A stretch of 64,000 nucleotides of DNA from Chloroflexota bacterium (GTDB lineage Bacteria; Chloroflexota; Dehalococcoidia; Lucifugimonadales; UBA826), in NCBI GenBank assembly GCA_002722155.1, contig PBKS01000015.1, forward strand, positions 1 through 64,000, written 5' to 3'. Shown in pieces: positions 12,938-17,087 of the stretch; within the stretch, counting starts at the first letter, position 1, and each line of letters starts with the position of its first letter. The position numbers were made by a program, and so were the translations under genes. The notes under the pieces are model-generated. The model made no database searches and was not told the DNA's origin. It saw only the letters and a program-made list of their open reading frames with translations.

Positions 12938-13283
12938 TTAAGAATCCAAATTTATCTTCATACCATCATTAACCAAAGACTCTACAGTGTTCCCGTCAAC
13001 CAGATGGTCTTTGACAATAGTTTCCACGTCATCCGGATTGGCGATATACCAGGTGCCTTCATTTCCTGGCCCATAGACAATCATGCTGCATTGATCAGTT
13101 TCACATTTCCTGTGCTGGCTCGTGCATCCGACGCTAGAAACATACACGCTGCTTCTCAAGCCGTATTTAGAAAGTATTTCCACAACTTTTTGTTTTACCT
13201 CTGCCCCACCTTTATTACCACAGTGAATTCCATCATCGCGTTCAACATCACAAACCAAAATATGATTCTTAAATTCAGGCATA
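12938..13283 (-). CDS. Putative thioredoxin-like (2Fe-2S) ferredoxin domain protein
   Basis: FKNHILVCDVERDDGIHCGNKGGAEVKQKVVEIL...SSVGCTSQHRKCETDQCSMIVYGPGNEGTWY resembles the thioredoxin-like ferredoxin fold. Confidence 0.65.
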
Positions 13284-13403
13284 GTTATTCTCCTAGTTAA
13301 TCTTAGTTCCACTTCAAAAAAGATTCTAACAGCCTTATTTTTTGGTAACAAATTAACTTAAAAGTAAATGCATGTTAATGTAGTCAAAATTTAAATCAGG
13401 GAT

Positions 13404-14183
13404 GTGGATATGTGCGCAAATAAAAATACCGGAAGATTAACTGGGAAAGTGGCCCTTGTAACAGGCGCGAAATCGGGCATAGGAAAGGCCTGTGTAGATA
13501 GATTTATAGAAGAGGGAGCCAATGTTGTCGCAGCCGATATAACAATACCTAACACGGACTCATCAGAACCTAACAGAATTTTACCAATATCAGGTGACGT
13601 TACTAAAACAAATGATGCAGCTGAAATGGTGAACAAGGCCAAGGAAACATATGGAAAACTCGATATTTTAGTTAACAGTGCCGGAATAAGTAGTAGGAAT
13701 GCATACGAGGAAGAAGAAGATCCAGAAAAAATATGGGACCGAGTGATAGAGGTAAATTTAAAAGGAACCTACTTGGTTTCCAAACATGCAGTACCCGAAA
13801 TGGAGATAAATGGAAGCGGTTCTATCGTAAATTTAGCCTCAATCAACGGCCTTGTTGGATATCCGGTCGGAATTGGGGGTGGTTTTAATGCTTATCCTCC
13901 ATCAAAAGGTGGGGTAATTCAATTTACTAAAACGCTGGCAAACGATATGGCATCAAAAAATATAAGGGTTAATTGTCTTTGCCCTGGGTATGTTGAAACT
14001 AACCTTACAGAATCTCTCACTAACAATGAATTGATTTTTCAACAGCTAAAGGATTTACATCCTATGGGTAGGCTGGGGAGACCTGAAGAAATTGCAAACG
14101 CTGCCTTATTTCTGGCTTCTGATGAAGCATCCTTTATTACAGGTTCGTCTCTCGTTATCGACGGGGGGTATACCTCTCAATAA
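13404..14183 (+). CDS. SDR family oxidoreductase
   Basis: GKVALVTGAKSGIGKA, NSAGIS, YPPSKGGVIQFTK, CPGYVETNLT, ITGSSLVIDGGYTSQ. Confidence 0.9.
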   Translation: MDMCANKNTGRLTGKVALVTGAKSGIGKACVDRFIEEGANVVAADITIPNTDSSEPNRILPISGDVTKTNDAAEMVNKAKETYGKLDILVNSAGISSRNAYEEEEDPEKIWDRVIEVNLKGTYLVSKHAVPEMEINGSGSIVNLASINGLVGYPVGIGGGFNAYPPSKGGVIQFTKTLANDMASKNIRVNCLCPGYVETNLTESLTNNELIFQQLKDLHPMGRLGRPEEIANAALFLASDEASFITGSSLVIDGGYTSQ

Positions 14184-14200
14184 TTAACAGTAGATACGAT

Positions 14201-14944
14201 TTACCTAACGGTTTTGAACACTCTAACCCTGCTTTTATAAATTTCCCCGCTCAATAATTTCAAGGCATCACTATTAGGCTCATCTACATTGATCAACCTT
14301 GACATGATTTTCCCATCAAAATTATCAAGAAATCCACACCTTTTTTTAAACCCATTCAAAGTATGCTTTTCCCCCCCGAGGAAAAGGTAATCTATATCTT
14401 GGATTCTTGGTTCCAATATCCGTTTGGACACTTCGCAGACTTTGTCATATAACTCTCGAATCAACCTTTCTCGACTTCTTTCAAATCTTCTCTGAGAAGA
14501 ACCTCCAGCCTTGTGGCGATTTTTCATTCGCCGACCTTCTGTTTTGGTATCGATCAACTCCTGACCTTCCATTAGTGCGACTGCATATCGTCCCAATCTA
14601 ACCAAAATAACCGCTACCAATTTGGGCACCTCAAATACATCCTCCAGAAGTAAAGTATCCTGATCCTGCGTAATTGCATCCATTGTAAAAGGAAGGGGCG
14701 GTTCTATTACTGTCAGCTCCTCTTCTCGTCTAAACAGGACCATTCCTGTATCGCTAGAGCCAACCTCGTTTACAACAGCTTCTATGACCGGCCCAGCGAT
14801 CTTTGGAGTTACAGATTTATTTTCCTCAAAATTAGCTGCAAGATAAACAGTTCGGTCTGTATAAGTATTTTCAGCCAAGTCATCTAGATGTTTAAAGAGT
14901 GATTCTTTCGAAAGCCAGTTATCACTTGTTTGAACTATCTGCAT
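14201..14944 (-). CDS. VLRF1/eRF1-like domain protein, putative peptidyl-tRNA hydrolase
   Basis: LVRLGRYAVALMEGQELIDTKTEGRRMKNRHKAGGSSQRRFERSRERLIRELYDKV with a GGSSQ loop, followed by DIDYLFLGGEKHTLNGF.. as in eRF1 domain 2-like folds. Confidence 0.6.
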   Translation of the reverse strand: MQIVQTSDNWLSKESLFKHLDDLAENTYTDRTVYLAANFEENKSVTPKIAGPVIEAVVNEVGSSDTGMVLFRREEELTVIEPPLPFTMDAITQDQDTLLLEDVFEVPKLVAVILVRLGRYAVALMEGQELIDTKTEGRRMKNRHKAGGSSQRRFERSRERLIRELYDKVCEVSKRILEPRIQDIDYLFLGGEKHTLNGFKKRCGFLDNFDGKIMSRLINVDEPNSDALKLLSGEIYKSRVRVFKTVR

Positions 14945-14970: not shown

Positions 14971-16953
14971 TTATTTACTGGCACTATATTCATCATATTT
15001 TTGTTCACAAACATGAACAATATTTTCAAAGTCTTCCTCTAAAATATATCTTTCCTCAATTAGTGTCCGAGTCGCCTCCCGTACCTTGCGTATATAACTT
15101 TCCTTACTGTCGTAAAGACTCTCGATGGAAGGCCTCGGATCTCCTTTTTCTTCCTTTTCGATATCTGTCGGAGGCAGTGGCACTGTCCATCCAGCCAACC
15201 CGCCAGTTATTCCAATAAAAAGACCCTCATTTCCAATTAATGGATGCCTAGTGTTCCAGCCCGTATTAGTGGTTACAGGGACGCTAACATCAGGAAGACG
15301 TATACCTGCTATTTCATTCAAAGTCTGGTCCACATCAGAAACGAATGCTGGATATGTTTCACCTTGATCAGGAGGAAGCTTAATTGTTCTACCCAAGTGC
15401 TGTTCGTTGCCATAGTCAAGTCTCATTGGGTTCAATACTCGATCCGGAAGTCTGATTCCAGGAATTCCCGCGAATTTTCCAATAAGATCTTTTGTCTCAA
15501 CTGCTGATCCATCATCCTGTCTAGGGTGACTACTTGGTGGTGGTTCATTTTTACCCTTAACCCAGTCATTCATATTGGATAAACATCCTCTCAATATAGG
15601 AGTGTAATTGACTCCATTAAAAGGCAAGTTTCCTCTAACTGAATCTGAATCTCTAACCGTCTCTAAAGGATACTTACCTGAACCATGTTGAGTACCAGAG
15701 AAATGATAGCGCCTCACATTTTTATGCTCCAGGGCATCACTATTATTATCAATATTGGTATGGATTAAAGCAGCGTCCCCTCGCCAATACTCAGCTGAAC
15801 TGTTTGTAAACATTATTTTCGGGACATTTTCTTGGTCAATCATTCGATCAAGCAAACCGCCTTGCTTTCCTGCTATGGAATCCTTCTGTCTAGTATCCGT
15901 GAAAGGGAAAAGCTCTGGCATAATGTAACAAACATCCTTGGAGGGTTGTCCGAAACGTAGATTAAATTCTCCACGCATCCCTCCACCAACATGAGCAATT
16001 ATCCCATCCATACTTGGCCTAGATGATTCATCAAGATTCATTCCGGTGTGTATGTATTGCCTGAGAAACCTACCGGTCTGAGATACTCCATAGGATATTG
16101 CATGGTCTATATTCCCTTCAAGCAGGTTGCCATCTTCCTCCGAAGCATACTTAATAAAGGAGCAAATATCCCTGACTGCAGCAAACCCAAGACCAACAAT
16201 ACGACTCCCTTTCGCCGTATAAACCAATTTATATATCCTACCTAGTTCAAATCCTCCTTGAAGGTGGACATGAGAAGCATCTGGTTCAACTTCAGAATCC
16301 TCCACTCTAACAAGGGACCACTTCTCTCTGTCAATAATTTTAGGAGTCCCATTCGGCTGATCTTGAACCATTAACTCTGCTTCTAGCTCAGCTTCATCAG
16401 CTGCAGAATTTTTCAAATGATACCGGTCAGCAAGAGGAAACACAGAAGTATCAATATTGGCTTGATACTGATTCATAATTTTTCCAGTTAGTTGCTCCCC
16501 GTTTAAATATGCCTCTGGCACTGAAAGACCTATTAATCCTGGAATATCTGGGACATCCGCTTGCCATCCACAGAACATCACCGTGTAACCCTCTTTCATT
16601 AGGAAGCCATTACCAGAATCAATAGGCGAACTAGGATCTAGGGGCCTATCCGCGCTATTAAAACCAGCTAATACCGTCTTATTACCCCTATTCACTACGT
16701 CCAAGAGCATTGTCCCATTTCCTTTAATAGGATCGGACGGAGTCAGGATCAGAAAATCCGCCGAAAACTCAACTTTACCATTGATGTTGCGAGGTGCTAA
16801 TTGAATATCGACTATCCTCACGTTAGCTTCAGAGAACGGGTCTACCTCGAAGTGCACTTTTCCGATGAGTTGATCATAAGTACCAATATCACCATATTCC
16901 TTCCCGTTTTCAAGTAACGCTCTATTTTCTATTACGAAGCGACTTACAGTCAT
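14971..16953 (-). CDS. Large alpha/beta hydrolase domain-containing protein
   Basis: YGVSQTGRFLRQYIHTGMNLDESSRPSMDGIIAHVGGGMRGEFNLRFGQPS and KIMFTNSSAEYWRGDAALIHT typical of a large alpha/beta hydrolase family; start set to MTVSRF at 16953. Confidence 0.75.
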   Translation of the reverse strand: MTVSRFVIENRALLENGKEYGDIGTYDQLIGKVHFEVDPFSEANVRIVDIQLAPRNINGKVEFSADFLILTPSDPIKGNGTMLLDVVNRGNKTVLAGFNSADRPLDPSSPIDSGNGFLMKEGYTVMFCGWQADVPDIPGLIGLSVPEAYLNGEQLTGKIMNQYQANIDTSVFPLADRYHLKNSAADEAELEAELMVQDQPNGTPKIIDREKWSLVRVEDSEVEPDASHVHLQGGFELGRIYKLVYTAKGSRIVGLGFAAVRDICSFIKYASEEDGNLLEGNIDHAISYGVSQTGRFLRQYIHTGMNLDESSRPSMDGIIAHVGGGMRGEFNLRFGQPSKDVCYIMPELFPFTDTRQKDSIAGKQGGLLDRMIDQENVPKIMFTNSSAEYWRGDAALIHTNIDNNSDALEHKNVRRYHFSGTQHGSGKYPLETVRDSDSVRGNLPFNGVNYTPILRGCLSNMNDWVKGKNEPPPSSHPRQDDGSAVETKDLIGKFAGIPGIRLPDRVLNPMRLDYGNEQHLGRTIKLPPDQGETYPAFVSDVDQTLNEIAGIRLPDVSVPVTTNTGWNTRHPLIGNEGLFIGITGGLAGWTVPLPPTDIEKEEKGDPRPSIESLYDSKESYIRKVREATRTLIEERYILEEDFENIVHVCEQKYDEYSASK

Positions 16954-17087
16954 GGTTAACCTCCTCGAACTTAAAAATGATTCTAACATTAGAAATTTGT
17001 GGGTAGAACGTTGACTGCAATATAGATGGAATCCTAAACTCTTTGTGTAAATTAAATAAGACAATAGTGCAACTGGAGGTAAGACTG

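Follow-up and report, generated by a model that had tools for sequence, protein, structure and literature searches.

A Gln-bearing acVLRF1-family protein of a marine SAR202 bacterium and the adjacency of acVLRF1 genes to mutS2 among its relatives

In this study we have analysed a 64,000-nucleotide stretch of DNA (the window) from a Chloroflexota bacterium, in which a minus-strand gene encodes a protein of the acVLRF1 family. The gene, its parts and its immediate neighbours are as follows:

14201..14944, minus strand: acVLRF1-family gene, 247 aa, with its ATG at 14944 and its stop at 14201-14203
14693..14944, minus strand: N-terminal alpha/beta domain, residues 1-84, placed by alignment to aRF1 domain 1
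14228..14617, minus strand: eRF1-domain-2-like catalytic domain, residues ~110-239, placed by the PF18859 match, AlphaFold and Foldseek to aRF1 and Vms1
14492..14506, minus strand: GGSSQ loop, residues 147-151, read from the sequence, with Gln151 at 14492-14494
14971..17064, minus strand: Abhydrolase_10 gene, directly upstream, 26 nt before the acVLRF1 ATG
13404..14183, plus strand: short-chain dehydrogenase (SDR) gene, a convergent neighbour conserved in the window's family

The open reading frame at 14201-14944 is intact in seven congeneric genomes, with 86-94% identity. The upstream Abhydrolase_10 gene is kept in loci of the same family and is likely co-transcribed with the acVLRF1 gene. 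We also considered whether the window neighbours (Abhydrolase_10, SDR, an S51 peptidase and RpiB) could explain the function of the protein, and rejected them, as they belong to metabolic families and are repeated neighbours chiefly in the window's own family. No other gene of ribosome quality control (RQC) lies beside the window acVLRF1. A small protein encoded at 12938-13351 on the minus strand has Cys-bearing segments and, by eye, the look of a thioredoxin-like 2Fe-2S ferredoxin; it has no Pfam match, but six loci of the window's family keep it close to acVLRF1.

The initial annotation, made from the sequence alone, had proposed that the protein is a candidate release factor of the VLRF1/eRF1-like family, with an eRF1-domain-2 fold and a GGSSQ loop, and had named a profile search and a structure prediction as ways to check this. 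Both, together with Foldseek, support a putative release factor. Against Pfam acVLRF1 (PF18859) the window protein scores 84.8 bits (E=7.8e-24; gathering cut-off 27.1 bits), which is far above chance, and the same profile matches 35 of 35 aligned family members. Among the sister families, eRF1_2 gives 31.8 bits and baeRF_family10 gives 40.9 bits; membership of baeRF family 10 was dropped, this score being about half that for acVLRF1. The NCBIfam acVLRF1 model (NF041024) scores 96.6 bits, under its curated cut-off of 125. The named relatives, which share 87-94% identity with the protein, come from metagenome assemblies of SAR202/Dehalococcoidia, and thus the host is a marine SAR202 (Chloroflexota) bacterium; a single-protein scan of the contig collection returned congeners only. 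Burroughs & Aravind defined acVLRF-1, with its GGxSQ motif, for Actinobacteria and Chloroflexi in 2019 (PMC6514570). The window protein therefore adds one more member to an already described family, and the earlier placing of most known bacterial members in other phyla is wrong. The profile match, a standalone gene, the GGxSQ loop and a host within the Actinobacteria or Chloroflexota are all shared with that family, and we regard membership of acVLRF1 as solid. In the literature searched, we found no published experiments on any acVLRF1.

The AlphaFold model of the window protein, built on 35 aligned natural sequences, reaches a pLDDT of 91.5 and a pTM of 0.85. Its least confident block is the loop region (residues 141-150, mean pLDDT 58), as would be expected if this were a flexible catalytic loop. 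Foldseek with this model finds archaeal aRF1 (3agk, E=4e-8), the hibernation factor Balon (8v9l, E=7e-7), Pelota/Dom34 and yeast Vms1 on the 60S (6r84, E=3e-4, TMq 0.45), while in a viral structure library the significant matches are viral eRF1 homologues or unnamed entries. By sequence as well as by fold, archaeal aRF1 is the best relative of solved structure. The family profile aligns over residues 8-203 with aRF1 residues 8-236, so that it begins in domain 1 and extends into domain 2; the aRF1 segment SITDNIKLKRTRQAV, which is the stop-codon-reading NIK segment, falls in a gap. The N-terminal profile alone has two aRF1 entries as its best PDB matches, both weak (E=0.008 and 1). This alignment is suggestive of an N-terminal 84-residue part that is a shortened aRF1 domain 1 without the NIKS stop-codon-reading segment, and not only the distinctive short extension of the acVLRF-1 family. 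The loop of the window protein lies within NRHKAGGSSQRRFERSRERLIRELYDKVCE (residues 142-171, with Gln as residue 151) and shares the GGxSQRR context with the GGQSQRR of archaeal aRF1; the window protein differs from aRF1 in having Ser where aRF1 has the Gln of GGQ, in lacking domain 3 and in the apparent deletion of the NIKS segment. With Vms1/ANKZF1 (eVLRF1) it shares the eRF1-domain-2 fold, a GG loop with nearby Gln and Arg and the absence of stop-codon reading. However, it lacks the zinc finger, ankyrin and VIM segments of yeast Vms1 and human ANKZF1, and its loop is GGSSQ where theirs is GGSQ. Proteins of the Balon/baeRF-1 clade are likewise bacterial relatives of eRF1/Pelota, but they have three domains and match the window protein more weakly.

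It is known that Vms1 releases the chains of RQC (PMC5989216). An RQC factor of the Vms1/ANKZF1 type acts together with Rqc2/RqcH once the large subunit has been split off. In contrast, the class of our host is nearly devoid of Rqc2/RqcH homologues. The RqcH NFACT domain (NFACT_N) scores over the cut-off in 1 of 393 genomes of the class (0 of the 220 good ones), in 0 of the 60 genomes of the relatives set and nowhere in the host genome. In a sample of the phylum, NFACT is over the cut-off in 135 of 301 genomes and in none of the 15 that have an acVLRF1 above 70 bits, two of which (G104 and G116) give weak NFACT matches only (E ~1e-4 to 1e-3). The absence of RqcH falls mostly within one class, and so represents one evolutionary event and not statistical proof of exclusion. 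Because RqcH is missing from the relatives and the class of the host, the gene content of these genomes indicates that the window protein cannot end an RqcH-type RQC. The host genome does contain tmRNA, Pth and SmpB, the last of these being present in 53 of the 60 genomes of the relatives set. One class I release factor was found in it (PF00472 domain with an RF2-type SPF motif; G000:C5:74887-75210, L072); RF1 and ArfB were not detected in the host assembly, which is 86% complete and may have a gap at these genes.

The gene context of acVLRF1 in related genomes bears on how such a protein is recruited. The flanking ORFs were clustered for 80 acVLRF1 loci drawn from throughout the class, the majority of them with flanks of about 5 kb. 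MutS2, which is some 800 aa long, is encoded next to acVLRF1 in 28 of the 80 loci, from 15 families; its gene is usually upstream on the same strand, and the two are less than 100 nt apart in 22 of the 28, with start codons estimated. All five neighbour copies tested with TIGR01069 are MutS2 (738-851 bits; cut-off 400) and carry MutS_V and Smr domains. By tblastn the adjacency was found in seven further genomes from shorter loci, and in L030 mutS2 lies downstream. Overall, counted by family codes and with partial contexts included, mutS2 adjoins acVLRF1 in at least 35 genomes, which come from about 20 families; three of these genomes (G024, G034 and G679) belong to the same order as the host. 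The next commonest shared neighbour occurs in only 4 of the 28 mutS2-linked loci, and thus the link is specific and not a matter of general synteny. In the clustered flanks, mutS2 is the only gene linked to translation that recurs beside acVLRF1. In the window's own family mutS2 is not adjacent, and metabolic genes adjoin acVLRF1 there. A search of 759 kb of the 1.65 Mb host genome and of the 64 kb window, together about half of the genome, did not find MutS2; two window ORFs of 765 and 931 aa, examined as candidates for mutS2, encode a UvrD/PcrA-type helicase and a family A DNA polymerase, respectively. In the open-access literature we found no paper that joins MutS2 with acVLRF1-type release factors, and the excerpts of the 2019 description state neither the mutS2 adjacency nor the replacement of Gln in relatives (PMC6514570). 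The recruitment route, which the initial annotation had left open, can be narrowed by the lack of RqcH in the host's class and by the adjacency of mutS2 in many relatives.

In B. subtilis, MutS2 splits stalled or collided ribosomes and leaves a 50S-peptidyl-tRNA complex for RqcH (PMC10897456). The relatives of the window's genus point to MutS2 as a probable partner of acVLRF1. We favour the reading, with a probability of roughly 0.6, that the window protein is a Gln-bearing acVLRF1 that releases nascent chains without RqcH, after ribosome splitting. Collided ribosomes would first be split, by MutS2 or by a different splitter in the window's genus. The eRF1-domain-2 fold would then enter the A site of the large subunit (or of a stalled ribosome) bearing peptidyl-tRNA and would bring its GG-x-S-Q loop to the peptidyl transferase centre, where acVLRF1 would hydrolyse the peptidyl-tRNA ester with no stop codon being read, freeing the chain straight from the 50S without an alanine tail. 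Ribosome binding, hydrolysis, the order of these steps and the use of the same partner in the window's genus are what we infer. The likeness to the MutS2-RqcH-RqcP-Pth system of B. subtilis would lie in splitting by MutS2 followed by a factor acting on 50S-peptidyl-tRNA; the difference is that RqcH is absent in the host's class, and acVLRF1 would replace both RqcH and Pth. One could instead imagine a back-up release factor that serves intact stalled 70S ribosomes alongside tmRNA and is not tied to splitting, since the host has tmRNA and SmpB with no ArfB detected, and in the window's family acVLRF1 and mutS2 are not neighbours. The recurrence of mutS2 adjacency across so many genomes and families makes this role very unlikely, and the likely loss of the stop-codon-reading segment, which would leave no evident contact with the 30S, suggests the same.

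The initial annotation had taken the Gln at the loop apex to be the defining catalytic residue, an assumption that the relatives weaken. In a loop alignment of 92 rows, including two duplicated genes, G147, G148, S150 and R153 are invariant (92/92) and the length of the loop is constant. Q151, in contrast, is kept in only 48 rows; 8 rows have Gln at the eRF1 GGQ position instead, and 36 have it at neither position, 3 of these with Gln at 152. Thus, Gln151 holds for the window protein and its closest relatives, being kept by every member of the window's family and by most near relatives in its order, but about half of the 92 sequences do without it. On a tree built with the loop columns left out, Gln151 has changed at least 15 times, and 9 of the changes are forced by well-supported branches. 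Gln151 is present in 12 of the 28 mutS2-linked loci and missing from the other 16, and so both forms share the same gene context. Such frequent loss among relatives, mutS2-linked ones included, is at odds with a strictly Gln-dependent hydrolase. A query of the actinobacterial type found one unannotated match among plasmids, too few to judge the conservation of Gln in Actinobacteria. In class I release factors the backbone amide of the loop is thought to be catalytic and the side chain to select water, and therefore members without Gln could still work. In Vms1, mutants of the GG and of the Arg are worse than Q295L (PMC5989216), and by analogy this milder effect fits the fixed GG and Arg and the labile Gln seen in acVLRF1.

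A tentative but plausible proposal is that Dehalococcoidia without RqcH run a two-gene RQC, in which MutS2 would split ribosomes and the adjacent acVLRF1 would release the chain without alanine tailing. The Gln side chain would be dispensable, because Gln, Ala, Ser and Glu toggle while GG-x-S and the loop Arg remain fixed, and the window protein would represent a Gln-bearing branch unlinked to mutS2. The same pattern would also suit chemistry independent of the Gln side chain, such as that of a tRNA endonuclease which removes the CCA end of peptidyl-tRNA and does not hydrolyse the ester, and indeed Vms1/ANKZF1 have been described as cleaving the 3'-CCA end (PMC11317155). However, we give such a nuclease little credence: the reports on Vms1 conflict, with peptidyl-tRNA hydrolysis shown elsewhere (PMC5989216), and excerpts of the 2019 analysis argue against the nuclease reading and describe the RNase H-fold catalytic acid as missing in the superfamily (PMC6514570). 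The 36 rows without Gln at either position also resemble inactive Dom34 and, in the same excerpts, most baeRF families (PMC6514570), and with the structural matches to Balon and Pelota/Dom34 they would agree with a Balon/Pelota-like A-site factor that has no catalytic activity, one that occupies the ribosome in hibernation or rescue and leaves peptidyl-tRNA uncut. We consider this unlikely for the window protein. Every member of its clade keeps Gln, and even without Gln the loop length and GG-x-S remain strict, unlike the inactive baeRF loops in those excerpts (PMC6514570). Moreover, the protein consists of the N-domain and the eRF1-2-like domain only, with no third Pelota-like domain (247 aa; model), and the linked gene in its relatives encodes a splitting factor, whereas other translation genes do not recur.

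RqcH is regarded as a requirement for bacterial RQC, to which, to our knowledge, no release factor other than Pth has been assigned. In a survey of ~15,000 genomes, 97% of the genomes with RqcH also have MutS2, and among Chloroflexota mutS2 is present in 35 of 41 and rqcH in 26 of 41 (PMC11633108). More Chloroflexota have mutS2 than rqcH, and so there should be genomes in which MutS2 makes obstructed 50S subunits without a known follow-up. The mutS2-acVLRF1 pair, if true, would supply this follow-up and would correspond, in bacteria, to the step carried out by Vms1. The adjacency of mutS2 in relatives without RqcH thus points to a simpler and testable rescue pathway, and the acVLRF1 family offers a natural mutagenesis test of whether the universal Gln side chain of release factors is needed for peptide release.

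Two groups of relatives have loops of their own. In a family of the same order (f29; L091, L124-L126 and L128-L130) the loops read GGQSA or GGQSS, with Gln at the canonical eRF1 GGQ position, and look as if the catalytic Gln had shifted by two residues from the VLRF1 position. A separate, well-supported subclade in Dehalococcoidia (L095 and L143-L151) has the loop GG[RS]S[EQS] followed by xRFARRTEEQ and is linked to mutS2 in none of the sampled loci; this type occurs as a second copy in some genomes that have a mutS2-linked acVLRF1, such as G220.
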